DNA of 30,610 nucleotides, from IMG/VR virus record IMGVR_UViG_3300008735_001162, positions 1 to 30,610 of that record, one strand, 5' to 3'. Numbering within the stretch: the stretch's first letter is position 1; each line of letters begins with the position of its first letter. The DNA comes from a virus. Made by a program: the position numbers and the translations under genes. Under the pieces are notes generated by a model. That model worked only from the letters and a program-made list of their open reading frames with translations, ran no database searches and was not told the DNA's origin. Of this stretch, positions 1,078 to 29,902 are shown piece after piece.

Positions 1078-1416
1078 TTATAGGCGTTTATATAACCACT
1101 GTGAAATAGGAATATACGGATAGTCGTCCCAATCTGAGTACGGTGCGTCCTTTAGTTTCTCGTCTTTAGTTTCTTTTTTATCGTGTGTTTCTTTGTCTTT
1201 TTGTTGAGGAATATGTTGAGAATTACTAATCATTTCCCATTCCTCTTCTGTGTAAGGCATATGTGCTACTTCTTTTTTCTCTTGTGCCTCTGTACTTAAA
1301 TCACGAGTAAACCCACACTTTTTACAAACATAAATGCGATGGTCTATGATGTAACTACTATTTCCCTCACATTGCGAACATTGTATAAGTGTAGATTTTT
1401 TTTCGTTTTTAGCCAT
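1078..1416 (-). CDS. Small zinc-ribbon protein with charged tail
   Basis: A 112-residue protein whose N-terminal third carries two CxxC knuckles (C13/C16 and C31/C34) in a zinc-ribbon arrangement. A long Lys/Glu/Asp-rich linker follows (about 60-90), then a short aromatic C-terminus. Zinc ribbons of this kind bind nucleic acid or a protein partner such as RNA polymerase, but nothing here shows which. The ATG at 1416 overlaps the end of the SpeD gene by 8 nt, so it is read from the same transcript by coupled translation. It could be a transcription or translation accessory factor; function not established. Confidence 0.75.
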   Translation of the reverse strand: MAKNEKKSTLIQCSQCEGNSSYIIDHRIYVCKKCGFTRDLSTEAQEKKEVAHMPYTEEEWEMISNSQHIPQQKDKETHDKKETKDEKLKDAPYSDWDDYPYIPISQWLYKRL

Positions 1417-1846
1417 TGTTTAAGACATGATGGTCAGGTAACTCATCTTGTGAGTCGCTCCACTTTCCAACATGTTCCGTTTTAAACTCATGCTCTCTGT
1501 CTAAATATTTCCATTCAAGTTTTACTAAACCGAATTCTTGCAATTTCTCAAAAACTTGAATAGGTTTAAATGGCCCGCAAGTATAAACATCTAATTGAAG
1601 CAATGCTGGGTTTGGTTCGTCCCAAATATGCATTGCAATATGGCTTGTTTCAATGATTGAAACAACTGTGATGCCTGCGTTTCCTTCTACTTTCACATAC
1701 TCACAATGTGGACCTGAAAGTAATTTCATATCGATAGTTTTAATTAAATCTATCATCCATTGTTTTGTTTTTTCTACATCGTTCTCATCAGGAGGATTTG
1801 ATACTTCCGCTCTAATGATTAAATGTTTATGAATTGGCAATGCCAT
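1409..1846 (-). CDS. speD: S-adenosylmethionine decarboxylase proenzyme
   Basis: This enzyme self-cleaves to make a pyruvoyl cofactor and decarboxylates S-adenosylmethionine, supplying aminopropyl groups for spermidine synthesis in the cytoplasm. At 145 residues it matches the short prokaryotic class. The motif ETSHIAMHIW (66-75) supplies the cleavage serine S68 and catalytic H73, and the later DVYTCG supplies C90. Spacing matches the family except for a two-residue insertion before the Cys. The ATG at 1846 has AGGA about 10 nt upstream. It sits between a small membrane protein and the zinc-ribbon gene, two genes away from an amidinotransferase-like gene that may also touch arginine or polyamine metabolism. 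speD is known in marine cyanophages; no spermidine synthase is visible here, so the host's would be needed. Confidence 0.93.
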   Translation of the reverse strand: MALPIHKHLIIRAEVSNPPDENDVEKTKQWMIDLIKTIDMKLLSGPHCEYVKVEGNAGITVVSIIETSHIAMHIWDEPNPALLQLDVYTCGPFKPIQVFEKLQEFGLVKLEWKYLDREHEFKTEHVGKWSDSQDELPDHHVLNNG

Positions 1847-5710: not shown

Positions 5711-7780
5711 TTAACCAGTGCGTTTTGTGATCATTTCAGTGATATTAGCAGGGCACGGTGCGTAGTGACTAAACTCCATACTAAACTGACCACGGCCGCT
5801 CGTCATACCACGCAAGTCGCCAATATAGCCAAACATTTCACCAATTGGTGCTTCTGCCCAAATGCGTACCTTTTGTCCACTAACTTCTTGATTGCTAATC
5901 ATGCCGCGGCGTCTGTTAATGTCGCCAATAACGTCACCAACTTTATCCTCTGGAGCAATTACGTCAAGTTTCATGACAGGCTCTAGTAATTGTGGTCCTG
6001 CTTTAGGCATGGTTTGTCTAAAGCCACCTCGAGCCGCTAATTCAAACGCAATAGCACTTGAGTCAACTGCGTGTGAAGAACCGTCTGTTAATGTCACTTT
6101 AAAGTCTAACAACGGATAACCTGCTACAATGCCGTTATTAGCAGACTCTCTAAAACCTTTTTCAACAGCAGGCCAAAACTCTCTTGGCACATTACCACCG
6201 ACAACTTTTGATTCAAACTCAAAGCCGCCGCCTGATGGCAATGGCTCTATAGTATATTCAATATCACCAAATTGGCCAGAACCACCTGATTGCTTTTTAT
6301 GAACAAATTTGTCTTCCACTGTTTGTGTAATAGTTTCTCTGTATGCTACTTGTGGTTTACCAATACTTACTTCAATGCCATGGGTTCTTTTAAGAATGTC
6401 GCACTTAATGTCTAAGTGTAGTTCGCCCATACCCTTAAGAATAGTTTGCCCACTTTCTTGATCTGTTTCAACATGGAAGGACGGATCTTCAGCGACCATT
6501 TTACCAATAGCAGTTCCTAACTTATCCATGTCACCTTGTGTCTTTGGTTCAACAGCAATACTAATAACCGGGGCAGGGAATACCATTGGCTCTAGTACGG
6601 CGGGTTTATTTTTATCACACAGTGTATGACCTGTTTGTACAGTTTTCATACCAAGCAATGCAATAATATCGCCTGCTTGTGCAGAGTCCTTTTCTTCTCT
6701 ATTGTCGGCATGCATTTCTACAATACGGCCAACACGTTCGGACTTGCCTGTGCTACTGTTATAAATTGTATCACCTTTGTTAAGTTTGCCAGAGTAAATG
6801 CGTGTAAATGTCAATGCACCATACTTGTCGTCCATAATCTTAAACGCAAGTGCTCTTAGTGGTCTGTCATCATCAACAATAGCATGTTCACCTGTTTCAT
6901 TGCCTTCTAAGTCTACTTCTGGCTGTGGATCAACCTCAGTAGGATTAGGCAAATAATCAACCACGGCACTCAATACATTTTGTACGCCTTTATTTTTAAA
7001 TGAACTACCACAGAATGTTGGGAAGAAATCACAATTAATTGTACCCTTGCGAATACACTTTTTAAGATCTTCTTCGCTAATGCTGTCAGGATCCTCCATC
7101 CACTGCATCATTACATCGTCGTCTTGCTCTACAACTTGCTCTACCATTAGATCATAATATTCTTTGGCCTTGTCTGCCAAGTCTGCAGGAATGTCGCTAA
7201 TAGTGTAAGAAGTAGGATCTGCTGAATTTGACCAGGCCCATGCTTTTTGCGTAAGAATGTCTACAATGCCTACAAAATCATCTTCAGCACCAATTGGAAT
7301 AGCCATAATAACTGGTACTGCGTTTAAGCGATCTTTAATTTGCTCTACTACACGATAGAAATCTGCACCAACTCTATCCATTTTGTTAACGTAAATAACA
7401 CGGGCAACTTCACTGTCATTAGCATAACGCCAGTTTGTTTCGGATTGTGGTTCTACGCCTCCTACCGCGCAAAAAACACCAACGCCACCGTCTAATACTT
7501 TCAATGAGCGGTATACTTCAATTGTAAAGTCAACGTGTCCTGGTGTGTCAATAATGTTAAACTGGTGGTCATCCCAAAAGCATGTTGTAGCGGCTGACTG
7601 AATAGTAATACCGCGTTCCTGCTCTTGCTCCATAAAATCTGTAGTAGCGGCGCCGTCATGTACTTCGCCTATCTTATGGATTTTACCTGTTAGTTTTAAA
7701 ATGCGCTCTGTTGTTGTAGTTTTACCTGCATCAACGTGAGCGAAAATTCCTATGTTTCTATACTTTTGTAGATCTGACAT
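5711..7780 (-). CDS. fusA: Translation elongation factor G, complete
   Basis: EF-G is the GTPase that moves tRNAs and mRNA through the ribosome after peptide transfer, and with RRF it splits post-termination ribosomes. All G motifs are intact: P-loop AHVDAGKTT (14-22), RGITI (56-60), DTPGH (78-82) and NKMD (132-135). The domain IV tip sequence SHAVDSSA with its conserved His is present, and the C-terminal domain ends TEMITKRTG. At 689 residues it has normal bacterial length with no truncation or frameshift, so it is probably functional. The ATG at 7780 has GGAG 7-8 nt upstream. It has its own tandem promoters, sigma-70 (7854-7826) and late TATAAATA (7815-7808), unlike a passive passenger. It lies directly downstream of the PrkA-YeaH-SpoVR operon. 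Whole EF-G genes are unusual in phages. Confidence 0.97.
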
Positions 7781-7807: not shown

Positions 7808-7815
7808 TATTTATA
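7808..7815 (-). promoter_or_regulatory. T4-type late promoter octamer for EF-G
   Basis: Perfect minus-strand TATAAATA, 27 nt above the EF-G ATG. It leaves a short leader that contains the GGAG ribosome binding site. Confidence 0.65.
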
Positions 7816-7858: not shown

Positions 7859-9490
7859 TTAGAAACCCCACCAATCACGTACTCCGGGATTAAATGACCC
7901 GCTGGTTGTTCCTGTTATTTTCTCAACTTGCCCATCGCTGTTAGGCACGGGAGTAGAACTGAAATATTTATACTTTATCCATTCTTTACATTTATGACCT
8001 CCAACAAAAATTTCTTGTTCATTATAAGCATCTAATTCTACTTTATATCCCCAGATATAAGCAATATAGTTTAGCACGTCTACAGTAGATTCGTTTGCTA
8101 ATTCTCTACCGCTTTTACCTCTGTATAAATGTAACAATAATGTTCTTTTATCATCATGATCAAAGTCTCTTACTTGTATATCTGGAATGCGATAGTTATA
8201 GTCATATTGTCTTGCTAATTCTTTGCGTATGCTCTTGTAACCAGCGTTGTTATGGATTGCTTTTACTTGATAATGTGGATCTTGCTTGCGGTCGCCAAGT
8301 TGGAACAATCTAAAATCACGTATAACTTTTGGAGATAAAAACTGTAGTATAAAACTCTCGTCCCTATAATTAGCAACGATGTCTAATGTAATCTCTTTCC
8401 AATTACCGCCAGCAACATCAGGAAACCATTCTTTATCTTCTTTTGTTGGCTCATCGCACATACGTTTAATGTCTTGAAAAATAGCAAAACCTAATGCATA
8501 TGGATTTATGCCACCATAATATGGTTTATCAAATGTAAGTTGGTTTAAAACGTTTGTGTGTAGTTTTAAAAACTCTAGCATACTTGCGTCACAAATCAAA
8601 CCTTTTTCATGTAAACGATTCATTGTATAATAATGCACAAAGCAAGCATATCCTTCGTTCATCACTTTTGTTTGTCCTTGCGGATAAAAATATTGTGCTA
8701 TCTTACGCACAATACGACATAATTCGCGTTGCCAATCTGTTAAATTAGGCGCGTTTTTTTCAAGGAAATATATAATGTTTTCTTCTGGTTTATCCAAATA
8801 AACATATTTTCTGTCTGTTTTCTTCTTTTCTTCCTTTTTACGTTTAATTACTGTTGTGTCCCATAACTCATTAACATGTTTGCGTAAGTATTCTGCCCTT
8901 TCACCCGCTTTCTCTGCCTCTGCATACGAATTAAGTTTTACTGGACGCTTATATTTGTTAATACCGTAATTACGAATAGAGTGTAATGCATCTAAAAATA
9001 GTTCTACTTCGTCTAATCCATATTTTTCTTCACACTTCTTAACAAAGTTTTTAGCAAATACAAGATAATCAATAATTGCTTCTGCGTTTGTCCATGTTTT
9101 AAACAAGTAGTTATTTTTAAAGAAATGGTTGTGGCCAAACGCGGCGTGAGCAATAACTAATGCTTGCGTGGTCATTGTATTCTCTTCCATGAGATAGTTT
9201 ATGCATGGATTACTATTAATAACGAGTTCGTATGCTAAACTAGTTCTACCTTTTCTGTATTGATTTTCATAATGTGACCATGCCTTACCATTGCTCCAAT
9301 GGTTATATGATAAGGGCATACCAATACTTGCATATGCATCTAACATTTGCTCAAACGTTACAACTTCAAGTTGGTTCGTGTAAGTATCGCAACCAAGTTC
9401 ATTAACTGCAATATCTTCGCAAGCATCGTAGATGTTACTTACAAGTTCAAAACTCCAATCATCTTGTTGTGTGAATAATAGTTTAGTCAT
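7859..9490 (-). CDS. spoVR: SpoVR family protein (YcgB homologue)
   Basis: SpoVR/YcgB proteins are widespread in bacteria and are co-expressed with PrkA and YeaH in stationary phase and nitrogen starvation; their biochemical activity is not settled. The family is unmistakable here: VTFEQMLDAYASIGMPLSYNHWS, then AYELVINSNPCINYLMEENT and ALVIAHAAFGHNHFFKNNYLF in the first 150 residues, including the His-rich motif that may bind metal. The length (543 aa) is close to E. coli YcgB, so the protein looks complete. I use the ATG at 9490; a GTG one codon upstream is the alternative. It overlaps the end of yeaH by 8 nt, so it is the third gene of a PrkA-YeaH-SpoVR operon. Confidence 0.96.
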   Translation of the reverse strand: MTKLLFTQQDDWSFELVSNIYDACEDIAVNELGCDTYTNQLEVVTFEQMLDAYASIGMPLSYNHWSNGKAWSHYENQYRKGRTSLAYELVINSNPCINYLMEENTMTTQALVIAHAAFGHNHFFKNNYLFKTWTNAEAIIDYLVFAKNFVKKCEEKYGLDEVELFLDALHSIRNYGINKYKRPVKLNSYAEAEKAGERAEYLRKHVNELWDTTVIKRKKEEKKKTDRKYVYLDKPEENIIYFLEKNAPNLTDWQRELCRIVRKIAQYFYPQGQTKVMNEGYACFVHYYTMNRLHEKGLICDASMLEFLKLHTNVLNQLTFDKPYYGGINPYALGFAIFQDIKRMCDEPTKEDKEWFPDVAGGNWKEITLDIVANYRDESFILQFLSPKVIRDFRLFQLGDRKQDPHYQVKAIHNNAGYKSIRKELARQYDYNYRIPDIQVRDFDHDDKRTLLLHLYRGKSGRELANESTVDVLNYIAYIWGYKVELDAYNEQEIFVGGHKCKEWIKYKYFSSTPVPNSDGQVEKITGTTSGSFNPGVRDWWGF

Positions 9491-10829
9491 CACTTTTATC
9501 CTTTGGTGTAAAAAACCTTCTAAAAACTGGATATATATCTTTGCTTTGATGAACTCTACCTAATTGTATATTCGACCATTCTTGTGATAACATATAATAT
9601 CTCTTTTCCATACCAGCGCCTGCTACATATTTCAAATCAGCATGTGTCTGACCTGCATTAGGAACAATGCATAAGAATGTAAAATATTGGCAAATAGGTA
9701 AAAGATCGTTGCGTAAAACTTCTGCTACTTTATCATTGTCTGTTGTAAAATTATCACCATCACTTGCCTGGCTAATATAAATGTTCCAGTGTTCTAAATC
9801 ATATCGCTTCTTAATAATTTCATGTGTTAATTCTAATGCTGAACTTACTACTGTGCCGCCACTTTCTTTGCTATTAAAGAATTCATCTTCTGTACATTCC
9901 TTAGCAACAGTATGGTGGCGTATAAACACAATGTCTACCAAGTCATACTTCATATTTAAAAACATATGTAGTAAAATAAAAAAGCGTTTTGCTAAATTCT
10001 TTTCACGTTCTTGCATTGATATTGATACATCTAAAATACAAAACATTACAGCCGCATTTTTAGGCTTTGGTACTTTAGAGAAGTTGTTAAACTTTAGATC
10101 AATTGGATCAATAAACGAGATAGCATTGTATCTTGCTCGTATGCGTTTTATCTCTTCCTCAATCTCTTGCAAACGTAGCCATTCTTGTGTTCTATGATCT
10201 TTGCCTGGTGGCAATGTAGCAAAAAACTCAAGTATTTTATCACGCTCTTCTAGTAGTTCGCGTAATTTTCTTCCCTTAGGCTTTTTAAGAGCCAAACGTC
10301 TGCCAATACTGCGTATCATGCTCTGTTCTAAATTTAGATTGTTTGGTGAGCCTTCATTTACATAACCTGCTCTTTCAACACTAAACTCTTCAATACTTTT
10401 CTTTTGTTTCTCTATTAAATCAGGAAGTTCTAAGTCTTCAAATAATATATCTAAAAATTCATCTTTGTTTATAGAGAATACAAAATCGTCTTCGCCATAT
10501 GCATCATCTGAACCTTCAGATCCGCCGCCGCCTCCTTGGCCACCCTGGGGTGGTTTGCGTATTTTATCGCCAGGAACATATTCTTTATTGCCGGGTAAGA
10601 CATAATCTTTTTCACCTGATTTAGGATCGTATTGGAATTGTGGTTCTTTAATACTTTTAGCAGGAACTTTGACGCGGCTGCCAGACTTTAGATCCTTGAT
10701 AGATCTGTTTTTAATAGTTTCGTCTAAGCTTTCCTTAATATACTTCTTTGACCGCTCAATGAAGCGTTGTCTATTGGAAAGATTCTTTCCCTTAGGATTT
10801 GAACGCCTGTCAATAATATGCTTGGCCAT
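9483..10829 (-). CDS. yeaH: YeaH/DUF444 family protein with von Willebrand-like domain
   Basis: YeaH-type proteins partner the PrkA/YeaG kinase in bacterial stress responses. The 448-residue protein has the conserved N-terminus (IIDRRSNPKGKNLSNRQRF), a Gly-rich linker at about 95-105, DEFLDILFEDLELPDL at 123-138, and a von Willebrand-type MIDAS motif DVSIS at 267-271. This suggests metal-dependent protein binding. Length and order match E. coli YeaH. The ATG at 10829 follows AAGGG by about 7 nt, and that site overlaps the end of prkA 9 nt upstream. The gene overlaps spoVR, so all three should be made together. Confidence 0.96.
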   Translation of the reverse strand: MAKHIIDRRSNPKGKNLSNRQRFIERSKKYIKESLDETIKNRSIKDLKSGSRVKVPAKSIKEPQFQYDPKSGEKDYVLPGNKEYVPGDKIRKPPQGGQGGGGGSEGSDDAYGEDDFVFSINKDEFLDILFEDLELPDLIEKQKKSIEEFSVERAGYVNEGSPNNLNLEQSMIRSIGRRLALKKPKGRKLRELLEERDKILEFFATLPPGKDHRTQEWLRLQEIEEEIKRIRARYNAISFIDPIDLKFNNFSKVPKPKNAAVMFCILDVSISMQEREKNLAKRFFILLHMFLNMKYDLVDIVFIRHHTVAKECTEDEFFNSKESGGTVVSSALELTHEIIKKRYDLEHWNIYISQASDGDNFTTDNDKVAEVLRNDLLPICQYFTFLCIVPNAGQTHADLKYVAGAGMEKRYYMLSQEWSNIQLGRVHQSKDIYPVFRRFFTPKDKSDD

Positions 10830-10838
10830 GGTAAACCC

Positions 10839-12779
10839 TTAACTTGACTTCTGGGTTCTCATGTACCATTCAACAAGTCTACGAACTTGCCTATCAGTAT
10901 AACCTTTCTCTTCCATACGAGCAACAAAGTCATTGTGCTTTTGTTGGTCATCTTTGTTTTGCTTATTACCAAAGGAAATAATAGGTAGTAGTTCTTCTGT
11001 GGACGCAAACATTTTCTTTTCAATAATCTCGCGTAGTTTTTCATAACTCGACCACTTTGGATTCTTACCTTTGTTTTTTGCTTTTGCTCTCAATACAAAG
11101 TTGACTACTTCGCTACGGAAGTCTTTTGGATTAGCGATACCGGCTGGTTTCTCAATCTTCTCTAACTCCTCGTTTAGTACTTCGCGGCTAAACAAGTTGC
11201 CTGTGTCAGGATCTTTAAAGTCAATCTCTTGAATCCAGTGATCAGCGTATTCAATATAACGATCAAACAAGTTTTGTCCATAATCACTATAACTTTCTAA
11301 ATATGCTTTTTGTATTTCATTACCAATAAAGTCAGCATACTTTGGAGCCAACCATTCTTTAATAAAGTTTGTGAGCGTTTTTTCATTTTCCTCACCAAAC
11401 TGATCGCGTCTAATTGCTTGCTCTAGTACAAACATCAAATGTACTGGATCAGCCGCAATCTCGTTTGTGTCAAAGTTAAACACTTGTGACAGTATCTTAA
11501 ACGCAAAACGTGTTGATGAGCCAGACATGCCTTCGTCTACTCCCGCAACGTCTTTATATTCTTGTAGTGACTTTGCTTGTGGATCAGTGTCTTTTAAATT
11601 CTTGCCGTTATACACTTGCATTTTGGAAAACAAATTACTGTTTTCATGCTCACGCAGTCTACTTAAAATACTATACTGCGATAACATTTCAAGTGTTTGC
11701 GGGGCACATGGATGCTGTGCTAGTCCACTTGAGTCTAGCATCTTTTCGTAAATACTAATCTCTTCATCAATACGTAAGCAGTAAGGAACCTTAACAACAT
11801 ACACACGATCTAGGAACGCTTCGTTGTTTTTGTTGTTCTTAAATGACTGCCATTCTGATTCGTTACTATGTGCTAAAATTGTTCCACTAAACGGAATAGC
11901 ACTAATACCTTCTGTACCCATATAGTTGCCTTCCTGCGTAGCAGTTAGCAATGGGTGTAATACTTTGATTGGTGCTTTAAACATTTCAACAAATTCCATA
12001 AGGCCTTGGTTGCCTTTACATAATGCACCACTAAATGCGTATGAGTCTGGATCGTGTTGTGAGAAGTACTCAAGTTGACGAATATCTGTCTTACCAACCA
12101 ATGAACTAATGTCTTGGTTGTTTTCGTCACCTGGCTCTGTTTTTACTACAGCAATCTGTTTTAGTTTACTTGGCTGTAATTTTACTACTGTAAATTTAGT
12201 AATGTCACCATCAAATTCATCCAAGCGTTTAATTGCCCATGGGCTTAGTAAGCCAGTTAGGTAACGCTTTGATATTTTATATTCTTTCTCAATTTGCTCA
12301 CCATATTTCTCAGGAGAGAACAGAGACAACGGACTTTCAAAAACAGGGCTAATTACATCGCCTGCTTTTAGTACATAAATTGGATGTATTTCCATTAATT
12401 CTTTTAAACGTTCAGCAAGACTCGACTTGCCGCCGCCCACTGGGCCCAACAAATATAATATTTGTTTACGTTCTTCTAAGCCTTGTGCGGCATGTTTAAA
12501 AAATCCAACAATTCTTTCTACGGTATCTTCTAGTCCGTAAAAGTCTTTAAATGCTGGATATACTCGTAATGTTCTGTTCAGGAAGATGCGTGACAACCGT
12601 GGATCTTCCGAAGTATCTATATGCTCTGGGTCCCCAATGGCAGCTAACATTCGTTCTGCTGATGTAGCATATGCGAGTGGGTCCTTCTTACATAGATTTA
12701 GATACTCTTCAAGTGTGAACTCTTGCTCTTTATATGATTGGTAATCTGCAGAGAACTCCTTTAATAGTTTGCTTGCCAT
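10839..12779 (-). CDS. prkA: PrkA family AAA+ serine protein kinase (YeaG homologue)
   Basis: PrkA/YeaG is a cytoplasmic AAA+ protein with reported kinase activity, induced in starvation and sporulation. A Walker A motif GPVGGGKSS lies at 112-120, embedded in the typical PrkA AAA domain with the conserved YGLEDTVERIVGFFKHAAQG upstream. The C-terminal PrkA kinase domain also appears full length; the total of 646 residues equals E. coli YeaG within a few residues. The ATG at 12779 has AGGAG about 8 nt upstream. It leads the yeaH and spoVR genes, and with fusA it fills a 7-kb block of host-type genes. A GCTAAATA octamer (12821-12814) may be its late promoter, and a perfect 17-nt palindrome lies farther upstream. 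Confidence 0.96.
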   Translation of the reverse strand: MASKLLKEFSADYQSYKEQEFTLEEYLNLCKKDPLAYATSAERMLAAIGDPEHIDTSEDPRLSRIFLNRTLRVYPAFKDFYGLEDTVERIVGFFKHAAQGLEERKQILYLLGPVGGGKSSLAERLKELMEIHPIYVLKAGDVISPVFESPLSLFSPEKYGEQIEKEYKISKRYLTGLLSPWAIKRLDEFDGDITKFTVVKLQPSKLKQIAVVKTEPGDENNQDISSLVGKTDIRQLEYFSQHDPDSYAFSGALCKGNQGLMEFVEMFKAPIKVLHPLLTATQEGNYMGTEGISAIPFSGTILAHSNESEWQSFKNNKNNEAFLDRVYVVKVPYCLRIDEEISIYEKMLDSSGLAQHPCAPQTLEMLSQYSILSRLREHENSNLFSKMQVYNGKNLKDTDPQAKSLQEYKDVAGVDEGMSGSSTRFAFKILSQVFNFDTNEIAADPVHLMFVLEQAIRRDQFGEENEKTLTNFIKEWLAPKYADFIGNEIQKAYLESYSDYGQNLFDRYIEYADHWIQEIDFKDPDTGNLFSREVLNEELEKIEKPAGIANPKDFRSEVVNFVLRAKAKNKGKNPKWSSYEKLREIIEKKMFASTEELLPIISFGNKQNKDDQQKHNDFVARMEEKGYTDRQVRRLVEWYMRTQKSS

Positions 12780-12813: not shown

Positions 12814-12821
12814 TATTTAGC
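12814..12821 (-). promoter_or_regulatory. Possible late promoter of the prkA operon
   Basis: Minus-strand GCTAAATA, one of the TAAATA variants seen before other genes here, 34 nt above the prkA ATG and its AGGAG site. Confidence 0.4.
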
Positions 12822-14344: not shown

Positions 14345-15664
14345 TTAGTAATAGATTTTATATATTTCTCTTACGTCATATTCAGGGTGATGTTTTTGTA
14401 GTATTTCTAGAGCGTTTCGAATTCTACTATAATCATTTTCTTTATTGAATGTAAAGTTTTTCAAAGATTCAATTAGATTTTTTATTTGTTCAATATCATC
14501 GCTGTAAAAACAACTACTTTTCTTCAGTGTGTGTTCAATTTTCTCTCTGCAATTTTGGACGACATCATAGGGAACTAATCGCAAGTTAAAATCACTGCTA
14601 TCTACCATTTGAACAAGCCCTGCTATACGCACTCTCTTATGCATAGGTATTTTTTTATTTTTTAGATCCATAAAAGAAAGTAGTTCATCTAAATATGGCA
14701 ACGTTAACGCTGTTATAACTATATTAAACGAAACTGGAGTATGATCGCATTCTAGGCTAATCTGTAAATATTGATCAATATTTTTTTCTAGTTTTGTCCA
14801 TTTTACAGGATATCTCTGTAATTCAATCGCCGGGCCTACACTATCAATACTTAATACTAACATAACAAGTTTAAAATGCTTGATGATTTCAATGAATCTA
14901 GGATGAATCATTGTCGTATTTGTAGTTATTACTAATTCTATATTTTTACTGTGATCGCATTCTATCAAATATTCTAAAAATTTTAAATTTTCTAATATTA
15001 TAGTGGGTTCGCCGCCACTTAAATACAATCGAGTAATATTGCTTATTCTTTTTTCTCCAATAATATTTTTTAATCCTATTTTTGAAGGCCAATTATATTT
15101 TTTAAGTTTTTTAGAAGTTCTACTCGCACCCGCGTATTCATTGTCAGGCCTGCCTGTTTCAGAAAGATCATATTTAAATTGGCTTAAATCATCAACGCCT
15201 AGTCTATTAAAAAATCTTCCATAGGTAATACTATAATCACTATTACAAATTTTACATGCCAAGTTACATGTATTTCCAGACTGTATTTGATAAAAATAAG
15301 GATAGCTATCGTCTAATATAAAATTATTTTTAACACTTTTATCAACAACGTCTTGTATGTGAGGATAGCTATCCTCCGCACCAAGCGCCGCCTGGCGAAC
15401 ACTCCACATGCCACGTTCTTCAGAGTCCCAGCAATTCTGACATTCAGGTGCCTTAACTCCATTATATAGATTTTCTCGAAGTTTAAGCATCCTTTTGGAA
15501 TTCCACGCATCATTTAAAGTATGTGTGTTTATGTTATAGTGATTTCCGTTCTCATCCAAGTGGGCATACTCTTTATCGTTACTCGAGGCACAACAAAATT
15601 TTATATCACCATTGGTTTCTATTTCTTGATGGGCCCAGGGATAAGTGCAAAGTGGTTTATTCAT
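14345..15664 (-). CDS. Radical SAM protein with N-terminal twitch-like Cys domain
   Basis: Radical SAM enzymes use a [4Fe-4S] cluster and S-adenosylmethionine to start radical chemistry. The cluster motif CNLACKIC gives C133, C137 and C140, and LSGGEPT (215-221) is the SAM-binding motif. The N-terminal 90 residues carry extra cysteines (C6, C24, C25, C75, C78) in an LCTYPW...CC...CQNC pattern resembling the twitch/SPASM auxiliary-cluster region. Such proteins recur in marine T4-like phages, substrate unknown. I chose ATG at 15664 (MNKPLCTYPW), which overlaps the upstream gene by 8 nt; a TTG at 15688 would add eight residues. The neighbouring glycosyltransferase-like genes suggest sugar or peptide modification. 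Confidence 0.88.
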   Translation of the reverse strand: MNKPLCTYPWAHQEIETNGDIKFCCASSNDKEYAHLDENGNHYNINTHTLNDAWNSKRMLKLRENLYNGVKAPECQNCWDSEERGMWSVRQAALGAEDSYPHIQDVVDKSVKNNFILDDSYPYFYQIQSGNTCNLACKICNSDYSITYGRFFNRLGVDDLSQFKYDLSETGRPDNEYAGASRTSKKLKKYNWPSKIGLKNIIGEKRISNITRLYLSGGEPTIILENLKFLEYLIECDHSKNIELVITTNTTMIHPRFIEIIKHFKLVMLVLSIDSVGPAIELQRYPVKWTKLEKNIDQYLQISLECDHTPVSFNIVITALTLPYLDELLSFMDLKNKKIPMHKRVRIAGLVQMVDSSDFNLRLVPYDVVQNCREKIEHTLKKSSCFYSDDIEQIKNLIESLKNFTFNKENDYSRIRNALEILQKHHPEYDVREIYKIYY

Positions 15665-16301
15665 TATCTTGTATTTTAGATTGGACAAATCTATCTAACC
15701 CTTCGTATGTGTCGTACAGCACATAACGCCACGAATCAAACTCTGCCGGATGTGGATATTCTTCTGGCTTTATAAAAATAAAAGTAATATTATAAAAATG
15801 TTTAAACAATAACTCAAACTGTTTTATCCATTTTTCTGGATTACGTGGTCCTTGCTTTTCGTTTCTATAATGTTCTGTATTTAGATATATGTTATTAGCA
15901 TACTTTTGGTTTTTTCCCTTGCCATAAAAGTCGTAACCCAACAACATAATAACATCTGCTTCTTCTTTTATAGCAGTATAAACAGCATACAATCCACTGC
16001 TCCAATTAATAGGTTGTTGGTATGTTTCTAAACCAAAATAAGGAAGATCGGGCAACACTCTTACTTTATCTTTTGCTAAGTAGTGCGCCCAATCCTTACG
16101 GGTGTAAAAGTTAGAGCGTAAGTGAACGCCATTACTGACTGCTTCTCTTGCCCTAAACTTATTACAGCATATCAAATTGTCAACGTGATTGTCTCGCCAA
16201 ATCGCGCCGCATCCGTATAACGGTCCTATGTCGCGCAACTTTTGTAAATCATAACTTTTGCGTGTCTCACCATTGCCAATACAATATGCTATTTTTTTCA
16301 T
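15657..16301 (-). CDS. GNGxSR-type phage protein, copy A (DUF115-like, uncertain)
   Basis: A 214-residue protein opening MKKIAYCIGNGETRKSYDLQKL, a Rossmann-like strand and Gly loop. Then come LYGCGAIWRD, WSSGLYAV and LLGYDFYG...NNIYLNTEHY. The same ordered motifs occur in the gene at 27727-28311, so the two are diverged paralogues. The family resembles phage glycan-related proteins with DUF115/MptE-type nucleotide-binding folds; activity is not proven. The ATG at 16301 has AAGGT about 10 nt upstream and a perfect TATAAATA at 16327-16320. It is the first gene of a pair with the radical SAM gene. Confidence 0.7.
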   Translation of the reverse strand: MKKIAYCIGNGETRKSYDLQKLRDIGPLYGCGAIWRDNHVDNLICCNKFRAREAVSNGVHLRSNFYTRKDWAHYLAKDKVRVLPDLPYFGLETYQQPINWSSGLYAVYTAIKEEADVIMLLGYDFYGKGKNQKYANNIYLNTEHYRNEKQGPRNPEKWIKQFELLFKHFYNITFIFIKPEEYPHPAEFDSWRYVLYDTYEGLDRFVQSKIQDNE

Positions 16302-21510: not shown

Positions 21511-22143
21511 CTAGTCTGCTAAACCTGCGGCCTTAAGGAATAACTCGTCGTTAAAACGTGGGTTGTCTTGTCTAAACAAGGTTACCAAACGATCAGCAAA
21601 GTCCATTCTTGCATTAAGGTCTGTAATTTCTTGCAACATACTTGCAAATAGTTCATAATGCTTGCGTGAAAATGCTTCGTCTAGTTGTTGATCAGAAGTT
21701 TCATCAACTTCTTCAACACTTTCTGATGTTGCTAACATAGCACGTTGAACGGCTGGGTGCTCTGATAAGCCTGGAGCAATACCTTCAATTGCTTCTATTG
21801 CGTCTGTTAAGTTGCCACCTTTATAACGTGGATCATTTAAAATACCAAAAGCCATTCTAATTTGTTTTTCTGTGAACTCGCCATCTTCTCTTTCATACTT
21901 GGATTTATGGAGTGTTCCATGGTCTGTGTCTTCTTCTTCACTGCTTACAAGTTTATATTCACTCGCTGGGCGATCATCAAAGTCATCAACACTTACCCAT
22001 GCTTCTTCTAACTCGTCATCTTCTTCTAATGCTTCAAGTTCTTCTAGAGTAAGTTCTTCTTCAACCTCGTCCTCTGCAATAACATCTGCAGGCTTTGGTT
22101 GGTTAATTAAGTCTAGTGTTGTTAAAATGCTTCTCATATCCAT
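21511..22143 (-). CDS. Acidic hypothetical protein, possible virion or scaffold component
   Basis: A 210-residue protein with an extremely acidic N-terminal half (Glu/Asp runs at about 25-50) and a helical C-terminal half (LDEAFSRKHYELFASMLQEITDLNARMDF). The opening MRSILTTLDLINQP resembles small acidic structural proteins in marine T4-like phages, but the role is unknown. The ATG at 22143 follows a weak GGAAA, and CATAAATA at 22189-22182 is a candidate late promoter about 38 nt upstream. Confidence 0.75.
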   Translation of the reverse strand: MDMRSILTTLDLINQPKPADVIAEDEVEEELTLEELEALEEDDELEEAWVSVDDFDDRPASEYKLVSSEEEDTDHGTLHKSKYEREDGEFTEKQIRMAFGILNDPRYKGGNLTDAIEAIEGIAPGLSEHPAVQRAMLATSESVEEVDETSDQQLDEAFSRKHYELFASMLQEITDLNARMDFADRLVTLFRQDNPRFNDELFLKAAGLAD

Positions 22144-22181
22144 AGTAATGTTTCCATCGTAAAGTTAATAAAGTACTATTG

Positions 22182-22189
22182 TATTTATG
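22182..22189 (-). promoter_or_regulatory. Late promoter variant (minus strand)
   Basis: CATAAATA, 38 nt above the ATG at 22143. It overlaps the plus-strand TGTAAATA octamer at 22188-22195 by two bases, forming a divergent pair. Confidence 0.5.
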
Positions 22190-22195
22190 TAAATA
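22188..22195 (+). promoter_or_regulatory. Late promoter variant (plus strand), leaderless geometry
   Basis: TGTAAATA followed by 5 nt and the ATG at 22201. No ribosome binding site lies between them. Confidence 0.5.
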
Positions 22196-22200
22196 TTAAT

Positions 22201-23088
22201 ATGAACGATGATTTAAAAAAAGTCCGTAAAATGGATTTAGATGTACTAGACAAATTTCTACTAGAAAAAACAGATTATTCTAATGTAAAACCATTAAATT
22301 TAAAGTTTGATGTTATTTTTATGAGTTATTATGAAAAAGATGCTGATAAAAACTTTGAAACTTTAAAAAAACTAGTACCAAATGCAAAAAGAGTAAATGG
22401 CGTTACGGGCATACTCAATGCTTATAACGCATGTAGGGAATTGTCCGAAACAAAATTTTATTATATTGTCGAAGGAGACAATATTATATGTAATGATTTT
22501 GACTTTAAACTTCCTATTCAATGGTATAAAAACGTTTTGTACCATAATATTCGTGATCAAAAAGAAAATTCTATTCCGGTTGACATAGAAACAATTTATC
22601 CAAATTTATCAGTTATGTGGGATACAGTAAATCCTATTAACGGAGAAATTTTACCACACAGTCCAATAGGCTTTACATATAAATCTAATAAACCATATAT
22701 ATATTATCCAAAAGCTACCGCAGCTGATACATTTAAAGCGTCCGGAGTTCCTGTACGACGAATCGGAAGTATTGATGCATTTAATTCTTCTCCTTACGAT
22801 GCATGGAAGGCAGGCTTTAGAATAGGAAATAGACTTACTTATCAAATACTAAATATGAAGACACCCAAGCACGATACACTTTACCAAGAAGAAAGATTGC
22901 ACCATTGGGAAAGCGTAGGTTATGATCGTTATAACGGTAAATATTGCATAGAAGGTGTTAAGTTAGGAATGTCGTTAGCCTTGAAGGACGATAATTGGTG
23001 GCTAAAATATAGAGAGACGTCACAAAATTTTAATAATTTAAAAAATATTTTTAAAAAAGAGTATGGAACAGAGTATCACAATAACTGA
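22201..23088 (+). CDS. Glycosyltransferase-like protein (GT-A type, predicted)
   Basis: A 295-residue protein. Residues about 36-95 read FDVIFMSYYEKDADKNFETL, then RVNGVTGILNAYNACREL and FYYIVEGDN, which fits a GT-A fold with an EGD/DxD-like metal site near 93-95. The C-terminal third, SSPYDAWKAGFRIGN, resembles the same group of marine-phage proteins. It probably adds a sugar to a phage or host glycan. It is translated without an obvious ribosome binding site from an ATG 5 nt below TGTAAATA. It overlaps the A-type carrier gene by 26 nt. Confidence 0.72.
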   Translation: MNDDLKKVRKMDLDVLDKFLLEKTDYSNVKPLNLKFDVIFMSYYEKDADKNFETLKKLVPNAKRVNGVTGILNAYNACRELSETKFYYIVEGDNIICNDFDFKLPIQWYKNVLYHNIRDQKENSIPVDIETIYPNLSVMWDTVNPINGEILPHSPIGFTYKSNKPYIYYPKATAADTFKASGVPVRRIGSIDAFNSSPYDAWKAGFRIGNRLTYQILNMKTPKHDTLYQEERLHHWESVGYDRYNGKYCIEGVKLGMSLALKDDNWWLKYRETSQNFNNLKNIFKKEYGTEYHNN

Positions 23089-23395
23089 ATCAGCACTAGC
23101 ACAACTACTAGTGATTGCAAACAAAAACGAAGTATCCGACGTTAGATACTTTTTAGATGGCGGCGGATGTTCCGGGTTGCTTGGTAAATGGGCAATTGGA
23201 ACAGGTAAAGAGGAAAGCGATATTACTTTTGATCTAGGCGAAAGTAAAGAACTTCTAATAGATAGTTTAACAGCATCATATATGAAAGATGCTACTATAG
23301 ATTATACTGGTGATTTTATGCCTGCTTTTAAAGTAACAATACCAGACACTAATTCATGCGGTTGTGGCGAATCTTTTCAGATGCCTAATAATTAG
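23063..23395 (+). CDS. A-type iron-sulfur cluster carrier (IscA/HesB family)
   Basis: A 110-residue A-type carrier that binds iron or an Fe-S cluster and passes it to target enzymes. The three cluster cysteines are in place: C36 in DGGGCSG and C99/C101 in CGCGESF near the end. It starts inside the preceding gene (26-nt overlap, different frame), with AAAGAG just upstream of the ATG. HesB-like genes are known in marine cyanophages. A plausible client here is the radical SAM enzyme at 14345-15664, or Fe-S ribonucleotide reductase parts elsewhere in the genome. Its stop overlaps the convergent HAD gene by 4 nt. Confidence 0.9.
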   Translation: MEQSITITESALAQLLVIANKNEVSDVRYFLDGGGCSGLLGKWAIGTGKEESDITFDLGESKELLIDSLTASYMKDATIDYTGDFMPAFKVTIPDTNSCGCGESFQMPNN

Positions 23396-24051
23396 ACTGT
23401 AAATCTTTCCACACTTTTATTAATAATTAAATTATAAATTTCTTCCCAATTTTTTGCTAAGGGAATGTCACCTTCATAGTCCATATTATGCCCGTGTTCG
23501 AATATAACGCTGTTAAGTCCTAAACGTTTTCCTACTTCTGCATTTTTTACTTTATCTTCGATCCACCAGCATTGTGTATTTCTGTACGGCGATAGTGCTT
23601 CATCTTTGTCGGCACCAGTATCTAGACAAATAACTTTCTCAAATGCTGTTTCACCAAACAGTTTTGCCAAGTTTCTCTCACGTAGTTTACCTGCGTATGG
23701 ATCTGTGCTTAGTGATGTAATAGCATGGAAAACATAACCGTGCTGTTCATGTAATTTCTTAACATAGTGAACAGAGTCACGCGAGGGCGGCAAAAATCCA
23801 ATTGACGCACTTTCATTAAAACTTGATGTGAGTCGTTTGCCTTGTTCTGGTGTAATGCTAAAACGTTTAGCAATACCATATATTTGTTTGTGTTCTTTTA
23901 TAGGAGTGTGTCCGTGTTTTTCCATCCATACGTGAAAAGCAAACTCCCAATCTAGTAAAACGCCATCTACGTCTGTTAGTATTATTTTGTCTTTTATCAT
24001 GTCTTTGTATTGTTCATAAGTTTTTATATTATATGTGGATATTGTAGTCAC
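23392..24051 (-). CDS. HAD-family phosphatase-like protein, GTG start
   Basis: A 219-residue HAD-superfamily protein. Motif I is LTDVDGVLLDW with the nucleophile and acid aspartates D27 and D29, followed by a helical cap. HAITSLSTD is the likely motif II, and WWIEDKVKNAEV the acidic motif IV with its conserved Asp. It probably removes phosphate from a nucleotide or sugar phosphate; substrate unknown. The start is GTG at 24051, joined to the FmdB stop in TAGTG, so the two are coupled. It could support nucleotide turnover or the sugar pathway suggested by neighbouring genes. Confidence 0.82.
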   Translation of the reverse strand: MTTISTYNIKTYEQYKDMIKDKIILTDVDGVLLDWEFAFHVWMEKHGHTPIKEHKQIYGIAKRFSITPEQGKRLTSSFNESASIGFLPPSRDSVHYVKKLHEQHGYVFHAITSLSTDPYAGKLRERNLAKLFGETAFEKVICLDTGADKDEALSPYRNTQCWWIEDKVKNAEVGKRLGLNSVIFEHGHNMDYEGDIPLAKNWEEIYNLIINKSVERFTV

Positions 24052-24248
24052 TATTCACTAGAAGGCTTTGCTGTGGTTTTAAACCAGCCAGTCCCTTTAA
24101 GAACAAAGTTAGATTGTGATATTATTTTTTTAAGTGTTTCTTGAGAGCAATGTGGGCAAAACTTTAATGGCTCATCATTTATTTTTTGCATGACTTCTAC
24201 CATCATTTCACATACTTCATTTGTGCATTTATATTCGTATATTGGCAT
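24051..24248 (-). CDS. FmdB-type zinc-ribbon protein
   Basis: A 65-residue FmdB-family zinc ribbon: MPIYEYKC with C8 and C13, then FCPHC with C31 and C34. Residues 45-60 hold the usual SNFVLKGTGWFKT ending. The family is common in bacteria and seen in T4-like marine phages, with unknown molecular role (named after a putative formamidase regulator). The ATG is 2 nt after the end of the 98-aa gene. Confidence 0.9.
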   Translation of the reverse strand: MPIYEYKCTNEVCEMMVEVMQKINDEPLKFCPHCSQETLKKIISQSNFVLKGTGWFKTTAKPSSE

Positions 24249-24250
24249 AT

Positions 24251-24547
24251 TTAAATATCCAAATCTTGATCATCCAATATTGATTCAATATGTGGTGATA
24301 CTGTTTTATAATCAGCGATTTCCATTAAAAGCGCATCATCTTTAACCATATATATATAGGCTATACTATTTGGATTTCTCTTTCGCATAACTTTTTCAAG
24401 CCACACTATTTTATTTGATTCTGCAACCTTTCTTTCTTCGCCTTTTGAAATGATATGCCAAAGTCTTACTGGCTTCCAAGCAAACCAAATATGCCATTCT
24501 TGTAATCTTATACGCTTTTCATCCCTGGTTTCTTTTGTCCAATGCAT
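24251..24547 (-). CDS. Hypothetical 98-aa protein
   Basis: A Trp- and Arg-rich small protein (WHIWFAWKPVRLWHII near residues 18-33) with an acidic C-terminus. It looks like a compact alpha/beta protein of the kind found in T4-like phages; no family assigned. The ATG at 24547 has AGGA about 11 nt upstream, placed in the 12-nt gap after the cytidylyltransferase gene. It is part of the operon 25351 to 23392. Confidence 0.75.
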   Translation of the reverse strand: MHWTKETRDEKRIRLQEWHIWFAWKPVRLWHIISKGEERKVAESNKIVWLEKVMRKRNPNSIAYIYMVKDDALLMEIADYKTVSPHIESILDDQDLDI

Positions 24548-24559
24548 TGTTGAGATTTC

Positions 24560-25351
24560 CTATGCAAACTGTTCTCCATATTCATCAATTGATTCAAAAT
24601 CATGCTCATTTGCTAACATCGCATTTCCATATTCAATAACCATTAACTTACATGCTTTGCGTTTGTTTTCATTACGCAATGCATGGAATTGACCCAATGG
24701 AATATAAAAATGTTGATGAGCGTCTAAATCACGTGATTTAATATTTCCTAATGTTTCTTCCCATGCATAGTCTACTATACATTGACCACCCATAACAAAC
24801 CAAAATTCACTTTTTCTCATATGGCGCCCAAAAGTCATTTGATGTTTGGGTTCCAAACTTACTTCTTTTACTCTACAATTACTATCTTGATATACAACAT
24901 TATAATAACCATAATCCGTATAACACATACCAAATTTATAATTACGAATCAATTGACTAGATGAAGTCTTCTTTTCAAAACCACCAACGCCAAAAATAAA
25001 CTCAACGTCTGCTATTGCTTGTTCAGGAACATTGGTGGTGTCTCTGTCACCCCCGTTGGCAAAAACAATTGTATCATTTGGATAATGTTCCTTTATTTTT
25101 TCTAATGCATGGATGGCAGTATTGTCTTTGTCATTAAATCCAACTACATCGTCTACTACTGAAAGACTATTAAGAATAAGTGCCCTCTCTTCAAAAAGCA
25201 TAAATGATCTACCTTTTTTACGAGAAAGCCACTTGTCACTGTTTAAAGCCACGATAAGTTTGTCGCCAAGTTTTTTGGCCTCATTAAATAATGCAATGTG
25301 CCCTTTATGAATCGGATCAAATCCGCCTGAGACTACTACTATCGTCGCCAT
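24560..25351 (-). CDS. Cytidylyltransferase-cupin fusion, probable nucleotide-sugar enzyme
   Basis: A 263-residue two-domain protein. The N-terminal domain (1-140) has GGFDPIHKGH (9-18), the HxGH nucleotide-binding motif of cytidylyltransferases, and a later ISSS-like SSSQLIR. From about 160 the sequence becomes cupin-like, with EPKHQMTFGRHMRKSEFWFV and a His near QFHALRN, resembling the type II mannose-6-phosphate isomerase cupin. Fusions of transferase and cupin suggest activation and isomerisation of a sugar or alditol phosphate for a surface glycan; substrate unknown. It has both a perfect sigma-70 promoter (25417-25389) and AATAAATA (25364-25357) 5 nt before the ATG. Confidence 0.82.
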   Translation of the reverse strand: MATIVVVSGGFDPIHKGHIALFNEAKKLGDKLIVALNSDKWLSRKKGRSFMLFEERALILNSLSVVDDVVGFNDKDNTAIHALEKIKEHYPNDTIVFANGGDRDTTNVPEQAIADVEFIFGVGGFEKKTSSSQLIRNYKFGMCYTDYGYYNVVYQDSNCRVKEVSLEPKHQMTFGRHMRKSEFWFVMGGQCIVDYAWEETLGNIKSRDLDAHQHFYIPLGQFHALRNENKRKACKLMVIEYGNAMLANEHDFESIDEYGEQFA

Positions 25352-25356
25352 ATTAA

Positions 25357-25364
25357 TATTTATT
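25357..25364 (-). promoter_or_regulatory. Late promoter variant, leaderless geometry
   Basis: AATAAATA on the minus strand, 5 nt above the ATG at 25351, with no ribosome binding site between them. Confidence 0.55.
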
Positions 25365-25388
25365 CGTAATCTATTTTACTGTACTATA

Positions 25389-25417
25389 ATTATATATTAC
25401 ATTACGGTCATTGTCAA
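25389..25417 (-). promoter_or_regulatory. Perfect consensus sigma-70 promoter
   Basis: Minus-strand -35 TTGACA (25417-25412), 17-nt spacer and -10 TATAAT (25394-25389). It overlaps the last codon of the transporter gene. It should give strong early transcription of the cytidylyltransferase-cupin gene and those behind it. Confidence 0.85.
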
Positions 25418-26436
25418 GAAATAGCGTATTTGTTTAGATTGCGCTCGAATTCGCTCAAACGTTTATATATTGAACGCAATTCTGTAATTGTTGTCCAGTT
25501 ATGCAAGAATAATGCAAACCCACCATGTACTTTCTGGAACGCATTTGACACTTGCACTACTACACCTAATAATACAGCACCAGTAAACAAACTTGGACCT
25601 ACGATTAAGTAAGGCACAATAACCATTGCTTGATCATACATAATCATCCATGTGTCAAAATATCCATAGTGTAAGTACAAACGTTGATAGTTGAAACGTA
25701 TGCCTGTGAATAAACTTGCTAATGTTTCTGGTTGTGCATAGTTTACTTTGTCATCTTCACCAAACACTAAATCCTTTCTAAATGCGGCTTCGACACGTTG
25801 ATTGTTATATTCAAGTCCGGGCAGTTTAATACCTACAAACCATGAAATAACCAACCCGCCTATAGATACAAATAATGCTACCCATACAAGTGAGCCAGGA
25901 ATGTCGCTAAAGAATGGAATAGTAACTGAAGAACTTAACCCCCACAGCACTGGAATAAACGCAACGAGTGTCATTAACGCCCGCACAACTTGCAATCCCA
26001 AACTTTCTACAATTCTAGCAAACCGATTGCAGTCCTCTTGAATACGCTGTGATGCACCTTCAATTTCTTCTTCAACATTGCGCCAACGCGGAATGTAGTC
26101 AAAGGTCATTGCCTCTCGCCAACGGAGTCCGTATATGCGTGTAAACCACCCAGTGAGCACCGCTAACAGCACATATGGAAATGCTAATACAGCAAATGAG
26201 GGATCACCATCACTAAAATATTGTAAGCCTAGTAATTTTTCATAAAATAAAGAAATGCCTTCACTGGCATTATTTTTATATTCACCAGACTTTTGTAGTA
26301 AGTCATAAAATCCACCATACCATGTGTTTATCGCTACTGTTAATTGAACTTGTAACCATAACGATATAACTAATAGAGAGCCACCGCCATAAGCCCATAG
26401 TGCCCATTTCTTAGTTTTATAAAATGCTTTTATCAT
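25414..26436 (-). CDS. SbmA/BacA-like peptide transporter
   Basis: SbmA and BacA are inner-membrane, proton-driven importers of peptides, including microcins, bleomycin and symbiotic defensin-like peptides. The 340-residue protein keeps the family core: RWREAMTFDYIPRW, then IEGASQRIQEDCNRFARIVE at about 125-145, FIPVLW, GIKLPGLEYNNQRVEAAFRK near 200-220, and NWTTITELRSIYKRL near the end. Several hydrophobic helices are visible. It lacks about the first 65-80 residues of E. coli SbmA, which may be a natural shortening. The ATG at 26436 overlaps the upstream stop (ATGA). A host-type importer in a phage could feed the infected cell or alter its sensitivity to peptides. Confidence 0.92.
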   Translation of the reverse strand: MIKAFYKTKKWALWAYGGGSLLVISLWLQVQLTVAINTWYGGFYDLLQKSGEYKNNASEGISLFYEKLLGLQYFSDGDPSFAVLAFPYVLLAVLTGWFTRIYGLRWREAMTFDYIPRWRNVEEEIEGASQRIQEDCNRFARIVESLGLQVVRALMTLVAFIPVLWGLSSSVTIPFFSDIPGSLVWVALFVSIGGLVISWFVGIKLPGLEYNNQRVEAAFRKDLVFGEDDKVNYAQPETLASLFTGIRFNYQRLYLHYGYFDTWMIMYDQAMVIVPYLIVGPSLFTGAVLLGVVVQVSNAFQKVHGGFALFLHNWTTITELRSIYKRLSEFERNLNKYAIS

Positions 26437-27024: not shown

Positions 27025-27053
27025 AATAATACTTATGCATAAAGAATTTATGT

Positions 27054-27473: not shown

Positions 27474-27477
27474 ACTG

Positions 27478-27485
27478 TATTTATT
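27478..27485 (-). promoter_or_regulatory. Late promoter variant (minus), leaderless geometry
   Basis: AATAAATA on the minus strand, 4 nt above the ATG at 27473. It faces the plus-strand copy at 27490-27497 across a 4-nt gap. Confidence 0.5.
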
Positions 27486-27489
27486 ATTT

Positions 27490-27497: not shown

Positions 27498-27503
27498 TTG
27501 ATT

Positions 27504-29577: not shown

Positions 29578-29582
29578 ACACA

Positions 29583-29590
29583 TATTTAGT
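29583..29590 (-). promoter_or_regulatory. Late promoter variant, leaderless geometry
   Basis: ACTAAATA on the minus strand, 5 nt above the ATG at 29577, immediately below the tmRNA hairpin. Confidence 0.5.
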
Positions 29591-29622
29591 GGGGGCGACT
29601 TTGTTAAGAAGGTGTCGCCCCC
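29591..29622 (-). terminator. Strong hairpin at the tmRNA 3' end
   Basis: GGGGGCGAC (29622-29614 on the minus strand) and GTCGCCCCC (29599-29591) form a perfect 9-bp GC-rich stem with a 14-nt loop. No U-run follows, so this may be a terminator or a processing stem. Its 5' arm can alternatively pair through GCGAC with GTCGC further upstream, after the tag. Confidence 0.6.
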
Positions 29623-29846
29623 GAAACCCCCTACGCGACCGCTAATTAGGCGGCTAATGCGTAATCGTAATAATCGTCATTTGCAATTATATAGTTTGCT
29701 GTTTTTTAATATGGAACTGCTCCCATATGTCGTCCATTTATCCTCTTCACCCTGTCGAAACTGTGTCACCCCCGTAAAAAATTTGGTGGAGGTGCCGGGC
29801 ACTGCCCCCGGGTCCAGAATGCGTACTTTCAACTTCATACGACAAT
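29611..29846 (-). ncRNA. ssrA: Circularly permuted two-piece tmRNA
   Basis: tmRNA rescues stalled ribosomes, adding a degradation tag with help from SmpB. The minus strand reads, in order: an acceptor piece ending ...CACCTCCACCA (3' end at 29784), a 10-nt spacer (29783-29774), then a coding piece opening GGGGGTGACACAG (5' end at 29773). GGGGGTG and CACCTCC form a full 7-bp acceptor stem, and CCGGG/CCCGG a 5-bp T-arm. TGTCGT (29844-29839) pairs with ACGACA (29733-29728), holding the pieces together. The tag at 29684-29646 reads ANDDYYDYALAA then TAA. A TATAAATA octamer (29860-29853) places the start at about the acceptor 5' end. Permuted order is typical of alphaproteobacteria. Exact ends are estimates, and no smpB lies in this window. 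Confidence 0.95.
29646..29684 (-). other. tmRNA tag reading frame
   Basis: GCA AAT GAC opens the frame and TAA closes it, giving ANDDYYDYALAA. The AND start and ALAA end match tags recognised by ClpXP and similar proteases. A TATGG/CCATA hairpin lies just upstream of the resume point. Confidence 0.9.
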
Positions 29847-29852
29847 CAAAAT

Positions 29853-29860
29853 TATTTATA
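29853..29860 (-). promoter_or_regulatory. T4-type late promoter of the tmRNA
   Basis: Perfect minus-strand TATAAATA. A start 6-7 nt downstream coincides with the estimated 5' end of the acceptor piece. Confidence 0.7.
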
Positions 29861-29872
29861 TAGGTGTAGAAG

Positions 29873-29902
29873 AATAAAGGAATACCTGAGCATTCCTTTA
29901 TT
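29873..29902 (-). terminator. Intrinsic-type hairpin after rpmG
   Basis: AATAAAGGAAT and ATTCCTTTATT form a perfect 11-bp stem with an 8-nt loop, overlapping the bL33 stop codon. On the minus strand the stem ends ATTCTTCT, a modest U-rich tail. It separates the bL33 transcript from the tmRNA promoter. Confidence 0.6.

Follow-up and report, generated by a model that had tools for sequence, protein, structure and literature searches.

PrkA, DUF444 and SpoVR are proteins that occur widely among bacteria, and to our knowledge their joint function has been unsettled for decades. Here we analyse a viral copy of this trio, carried between positions 7859 and 12779 of IMG/VR virus record IMGVR_UViG_3300008735_001162, whose 30,610 bp make up the whole stretch studied, referred to as the window. 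Among the described bacterial counterparts, the prkA operon of Rhizobium etli has the same gene order and forms a single transcription unit by reverse transcription PCR (PMC3188799). In E. coli, YeaG (PrkA) and YeaH (DUF444) act together, quiescing metabolism in nitrogen starvation and slowing recovery (PMC4664914, PMC6299236, PMC10954441), and the pair acts as a metabolic brake (PMC10954441). Three YeaG residues, K116, R232 and K426, are essential (PMC4664914). The kinase activity of YeaG has been reported as weak (PMC6299236), AceA has been proposed as its substrate in vitro (PMC8055822), and no kinase activity was detected in purified Bacillus anthracis PrkA (PMC13001217). On the viral side, a study of oxygen minimum zone (OMZ) viromes found spoVR to be the most abundant sporulation-class viral gene (PMC8940887), and the Ralstonia jumbo phage RsoM2USA encodes SpoVR (21,854-23,371) and PrkA (24,727-26,670) with a 1,355-bp space between them (PMC8504454).

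The trio in a jumbo-phage genome

The present analysis shows that the trio is a long-established phage-resident module and not stray host DNA. In the window, all three genes lie on the (-) strand. The first, PrkA/YeaG (10839..12779, 646 aa), encodes an AAA+ ATPase with a C-terminal PrkA domain and matches AAA_PrkA (PF08298, 577.8 bits) and PrkA C-terminal (PF06798, 228.3 bits) at full length, besides NCBIfam PRK15455 (1195 bits). It is followed by DUF444/YeaH (9483..10829, 448 aa), a von Willebrand factor A (VWA) domain protein with a metal-ion-dependent adhesion site (MIDAS), which matches PF04285 at full length (507.9 bits). The last gene, SpoVR/YcgB-like (7859..9493, 544 aa), starts with GTG, an ATG being the next codon, and matches PF04293 (517.5 bits) and SpoVR_C (PF24755, 47.7 bits); its NCBIfam equivalog score is 718.7 against a cut-off of 679, and the corresponding cut-offs are also exceeded by PrkA and the YeaH-type protein. 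The reading frames are all open and of a length far beyond chance. PrkA and DUF444 are 9 nucleotides (nt) apart, and DUF444 overlaps SpoVR by 11 nt if the GTG is taken as the start and by 8 nt if the ATG that follows it is. Conserved order, one strand and tight spacing, the marks of an operon, are thus all present in the window. The order PrkA-DUF444-SpoVR is also the one usual in cells: of the 80 closest cellular loci, all have DUF444 after PrkA, and 77 have SpoVR within 6 kb as well. The preliminary description of this DNA had reported a full-length trio in bacterial operon order, with an overlap and a 9-nt gap, and the Pfam and NCBIfam matches, the coordinates and the cellular loci bear it out.

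The window aligns at 99.97-100% identity, over 842-22779 and 21692-30610, with a contig of 201,690 bp (G001) that encodes a T4-type Gp23 major capsid protein (2.3e-99) and a terminase (4.8e-18). Gp23 and terminase are found as well on 322-kb and 158-kb contigs of the window's near relatives, and the largest trio-bearing contig in the full set measures 578 kb. Because capsid and terminase genes stand on the long contig and on those of its relatives, and because the trio belongs to a phage-only lineage (see below), host contamination of the window and its relatives is ruled out. The window virus is a marine jumbo phage, and its trio is auxiliary cargo of the AMG type, made up of genes that resemble those of hosts but sit in a true phage genome and not on a bacterial contig or in host flank.

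Linkage, ancestry and selection among viruses

The PrkA scan of IMG/VR matched 121 relatives and retained 80, from which two bacterial-looking loci were removed, leaving 78. The removed loci, L074 and L077, were judged to be host contamination; L077 falls among bacteria. The PrkA of L074 is identical to that of Enterobacter 'phage' LAU1 (L083, MN688132.1 1-3308), a record with YeaG/YeaH at its start that resembles the bacterial flank of a badly trimmed prophage.

Linkage was counted from PrkA only at loci with at least 4.6 kb downstream (51 of 78), and DUF444 and SpoVR were present in 51/51. Seeded from SpoVR, the search returned PrkA and DUF444 in 71/71 viral loci with enough upstream flank. 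The co-occurrence that the preliminary description proposed to look for is found in viral collections, at many phage loci and not merely on bacterial contigs. The two seeded sets overlap and both scans are biased to the window's relatives; other phages may therefore hold lone members of the trio. The usual viral spacing is -1 to 15 nt for PrkA/DUF444 and -11 to 5 nt for DUF444/SpoVR, and some lineages have insertions of 0.2-2.7 kb between the genes.

Trees were built by quick searches, with SH-aLRT (Shimodaira-Hasegawa-like approximate likelihood ratio test) support only and a cellular sample that was not exhaustive; in all three, the main phage set stands apart from the sampled cellular sequences. 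For PrkA, 31 phage rows form a starred set (96) with no cellular sequence inside, and the next sets are alphaproteobacterial (100, starred) and a small separate phage pair; an earlier PrkA tree, with a phage set of 39 rows, is concordant. The DUF444 tree has a phage set of 29 rows (98, starred). In the SpoVR tree a branch (97, starred) parts 27 phage rows from all cellular rows, and under midpoint rooting these 27 rows are not drawn as one clade. Among 399 sampled Pseudomonadota genomes, the best cellular PrkA found shares 71% identity with that of the window. Since L080/L081, L076/L078, L079 and the ~600-kb phages are placed outside the main phage set, phages are likely to have acquired the trio several times. 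A role in spore formation was rejected, as the sequences group with Proteobacteria. The reading of virome spoVR as a 'sporulation' gene needs correction: most of these phages have it as one member of a module of three genes, whose nearest kin are in Proteobacteria, not in spore formers.

The trio is under strong purifying selection in phages. In comparisons of phage pairs, PrkA has a ratio of nonsynonymous to synonymous substitution rates (dN/dS) of 0.02-0.07, and DUF444 and SpoVR have ratios of about 0.03-0.12, with dS saturated for the more distant pairs. K118, R234 and K428 of the window PrkA correspond to E. coli YeaG K116, R232 and K426, and the equivalents of these residues, the Walker A lysine included, are kept in 78/78 phage PrkAs. 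The DUF444 MIDAS (D267-x-S269-x-S271, T326 and D357) is conserved in phages and bacteria and even in distant Thermus phages. The Walker A and MIDAS motifs, whose conservation the preliminary description had proposed to check, are both intact, and the relatives show retained residues and low dN/dS (0.02-0.12) in place of inactivating changes. In Thermus phage PrkA, the Walker A lysine is kept and an aspartate stands at the K426 position, a replacement that is suggestive only, the alignment being at ~26% identity. SpoVR has five invariant residues (H65, H116, H121, E280 and H287); that these histidines and the glutamate make it a metalloenzyme is a guess. A phage lineage that holds three genes together under such selection points to one working unit, worth carrying during infection.

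Expression, host and possible function

A CTAAATA element at 12814..12820 (-), 41 nt upstream of the PrkA start, is T4-late-promoter-like and may act as such. Among 43 non-redundant phages, TAAATA occurs within 100 nt upstream of PrkA in 19, against 7.9 expected, and CTAAATA in 9, against 1.2 expected; most of these sites are 30-50 nt ahead of the start codon. In these phages, ATAAATA is not enriched before PrkA (5/43, 3.4 expected) and was not found before DUF444 or SpoVR. Scans for sigma-70 promoters and terminators gave no more matches than shuffles. The canonical T4-type late promoter element, TATAAATA, lies at 7808..7815 (-) upstream of the elongation factor G (EF-G) gene and precedes 10/111 genes of the window virus, as against 0/336 coding-region samples. 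The TAAATA-type signal upstream of PrkA, together with TATAAATA as the late consensus in the window virus, suggests that one late-type promoter in front of PrkA serves the whole trio. This claim is a modest one, since the signal is limited to CTAAATA and the TAAATA core and does not extend to ATAAATA.

The EF-G gene (5711..7780 (-), 689 aa; TIGR00484, 952.7 bits) is the next gene downstream of the trio. The best alphaproteobacterial EF-Gs found share 56-59% identity with its product. EF-G stands near the trio in 10/80 viral loci, a count that reaches beyond the window's own population; it is tied to the trio in near relatives only and lies outside the core trio. Also outside the trio is a permuted two-piece transfer-messenger RNA (tmRNA) of alphaproteobacterial type (29588..29882 (-); Rfam RF04321, 121.8 bits; RF01849, 83.7 bits). 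RF01849 matched 11 of the 15 trio-bearing phage contigs tested (G001, G004-G007, G010, G011, G014 and G018-G020), eight of them above the cut-off, and in L013-type phages the tmRNA is ~6.6 kb downstream of SpoVR. The EF-G neighbour and the tmRNA found in many of these phages suggest that they are equipped to translate under stress.

In 385 sampled genomes of one class, the most similar tmRNAs are mostly in genomes of 0.9-1.6 Mb. A PrkA search in ten such small genomes gave only ~60-residue matches, in seven of them, within frames of 672-860 aa that were mostly Lon-sized. Because the closest tmRNAs are found in small alphaproteobacterial genomes showing no true PrkA, a streamlined alphaproteobacterium that lacks the PrkA operon may be the host; AT-rich sequence can attract such tmRNA matches, and the source of the tmRNA may differ from the current host. 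Along these lines, the trio could be a late-expressed, co-inherited core machine of a widespread jumbo-phage lineage, delivered with its own tmRNA (and with EF-G in the window's relatives) into streamlined alphaproteobacteria that lack the operon. We hold this to be unlikely, if still well worth considering; if true, the phage would impose on the cell a stress-response apparatus foreign to it.

Other genes of the window were noted in passing. A radical S-adenosylmethionine (SAM)-SPASM protein (14345-15688 (-)) weakly matches prokaryotic viperin (pVip, 44 bits), and an SbmA/BacA-like transporter gene (25414-26436 (-); PF05992, 408 bits) is unusual in a phage. Further host-type genes encode a SAM decarboxylase (1409-1846 (-)) and an IscA/ErpA-like iron-sulphur protein (23063-23395 (+)), the latter slightly under the TIGR00049 cut-off.

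Family assignment, residues and predicted fold show PrkA to belong to the AAA+ ATPases and DUF444 to be a putative VWA/MIDAS adaptor. The DUF444 model (predicted local distance difference test, pLDDT, 74; predicted template modelling score, pTM, 0.55) has fold matches to VWA/MIDAS structures, NorD (from the NorQD AAA+ complex) and MDN1-MIDAS among them. The SpoVR model (pLDDT 80, pTM 0.78) had no fold match in the PDB at E <= 0.001, and a sequence search found no solved relative of it. For a distant PrkA homologue, a multi-chain assembly has been solved (9xip/9xiq/9xir; 3 entries with 30 chains in all).

Of the clues to mechanism, the AAA+/VWA pairing is the firmest, and for this reason we favour an ATP-driven remodelling machine that works with SpoVR. 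By analogy with NorQ/NorD, PrkA and DUF444 would form the machine, which would activate or deliver SpoVR or else act with it on host targets. The three genes could be co-transcribed from the late-type promoter before PrkA. As YeaGH quiescence in E. coli would suggest, the infected and probably nutrient-limited cell would be shifted to a stable state of restraint that lets late phage production run to its end. The main action would be ATP-driven remodelling and not wholesale protein phosphorylation. Taken whole, the proposal that a phage-resident AAA+/VWA machine, acting late and with SpoVR, sets the state of a nutrient-limited cell has, in our judgement, slightly less than an even chance of being right. 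The preliminary description had supposed that a phage copy might keep starved cells productive or reprogramme protein phosphorylation. The brake role of YeaGH does not simply predict the first of these, and the second has lost ground, with no kinase activity in B. anthracis PrkA (PMC13001217) to set against the weak activity of YeaG and the AceA report (PMC6299236, PMC8055822).

Several points weigh against the proposal. The promoter test relied on simple shuffles, tried several patterns and drew on related sequences. The starvation link comes from bacteria distant from the likely host, and the function proposed for the phage trio, SpoVR included, is a putative one. Furthermore, the K426 equivalent, needed in E. 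coli, is present throughout the 78 phage PrkAs, which keeps a kinase role in view. On such a role, PrkA would be a Ser/Thr kinase rewiring host phosphorylation during infection, and the reported phosphorylation of AceA by YeaG in vitro (PMC8055822) speaks for it; yet purified B. anthracis PrkA showed no kinase activity (PMC13001217), and distant phage PrkAs lack the lysine while keeping Walker A (again at ~26% identity), so we find it doubtful, and more so than the two explanations considered next.

Gene neighbours in Thermus phages and in one large marine phage group make virion assembly the main rival. Here the PrkA-DUF444 machine would remodel or package a structural protein in head or tail morphogenesis. 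The Lalka8 trio lies between portal/minor head genes and the large terminase subunit gene (TerL), that of phiYS40 is near TerL, the marine group has tape-measure-like, PAAR-lysozyme and virion structural proteins upstream, and a late-type promoter would suit such a role. In the window lineage, however, the trio is tens of kb from capsid and terminase, and each of the three genes is closely similar to bacterial orthologues without a virion role; we regard assembly as rather improbable. The phage copy could instead merely raise the dose of the host stress operon and so aid cell survival in a long infection. Host-like sequence, order and catalytic residues agree with this, as does the richness of OMZ viromes in spoVR, which that study took to serve host survival (PMC8940887). 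But the phage lineage is apart from all sampled cellular lineages, and no true PrkA is seen in the small alphaproteobacterial genomes whose tmRNAs are most similar, so that the host may have no copy of its own to be supplemented; we place this explanation behind assembly. The least probable is a phage-borne conflict system, either for superinfection exclusion against competing phages or for a block of host defence. AAA+ and VWA proteins do occur in known conflict systems, and such cargo is common in jumbo phages; a trio that evolves slowly, keeps its order and has housekeeping stress genes as orthologues is nevertheless unlike typical fast-evolving defence cargo, and PADLOC gives only a marginal IetA match (18.5 bits over ~45 residues of PrkA). 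A known anti-phage defence system was rejected, as PADLOC returned no full-length match and none at all for DUF444 or SpoVR.

Whichever of these holds, the phage trio offers a natural, separable version in which trio function can be tested, and it bears on phage reproduction in starved cells, the dominant condition in the sea.

Comparison with known systems

The bacterial operon (prkA of R. etli; yeaGH with ycgB of E. coli) has the families, order, strand and catalytic and metal-site residues in common with the window trio, and bacterial PrkA is 67-71% identical to the window PrkA. Unlike the operon, the phage trio forms its own lineage, in genomes of jumbo phages that also encode a T4-type capsid and a terminase, and it has a TAAATA-type element where the R. 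etli operon is controlled by sigma-N and (p)ppGpp (PMC3188799).

The NorQ-NorD-type AAA+/VWA pairs resemble it in combining a hexamer-type AAA+ ATPase with a MIDAS-bearing VWA protein, the DUF444 model matching NorD. PrkA differs from NorQ/MoxR in its AAA+ family and extra C-terminal domain, and the trio has a third partner, SpoVR, without a structural match.

Among phages, the Thermus phages phiYS40, TMA, phiLo and Lalka8/27 carry PrkA and a VWA protein, and in some cases SpoVR, in a cluster. In contrast to the window trio, theirs has the order VWA-SpoVR-PrkA, adjoins head and terminase genes and has the K426 equivalent replaced; at ~25% identity to the window, it would stem either from an acquisition of its own or from a very early divergence. 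A search with phiYS40 PrkA found only three close relatives, and the annotations of phiYS40 and related phages name SpoVR, a serine kinase and a conserved bacterial protein. In Lalka8 (L168) and phiYS40 (L169), the cluster of PrkA, VWA and SpoVR genes is surrounded by genes for portal, minor head and terminase proteins, and a deoxynucleoside monophosphate kinase is encoded nearby. The ~600-kb metagenomic phages LR745206, LR756502 and LR756504 have all three genes, their PrkA being 60-63% identical to that of the window and branching apart from its lineage; in LR756502, SpoVR is elsewhere in the genome, unlike the contiguous trio of the window. Another phage of ~595 kb (L167, LR756511.1 338938-356941) has the order PrkA-DUF444-SpoVR at 25-27% identity to the window. 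RsoM2USA, compared by its published description and outside the trees, shares PrkA and SpoVR with the window, and its gap is of a size that would fit DUF444.

The preliminary description knew of no phage system built on this trio. The open-access literature searched, subscription papers being outside the search, likewise holds no description of the trio as a phage system; the genes themselves have precedents in the Thermus phages, the ~600-kb phages, RsoM2USA and the spoVR of OMZ viromes. The window trio represents a phage lineage of a bacterial operon already known, and it is real, selected and widespread.

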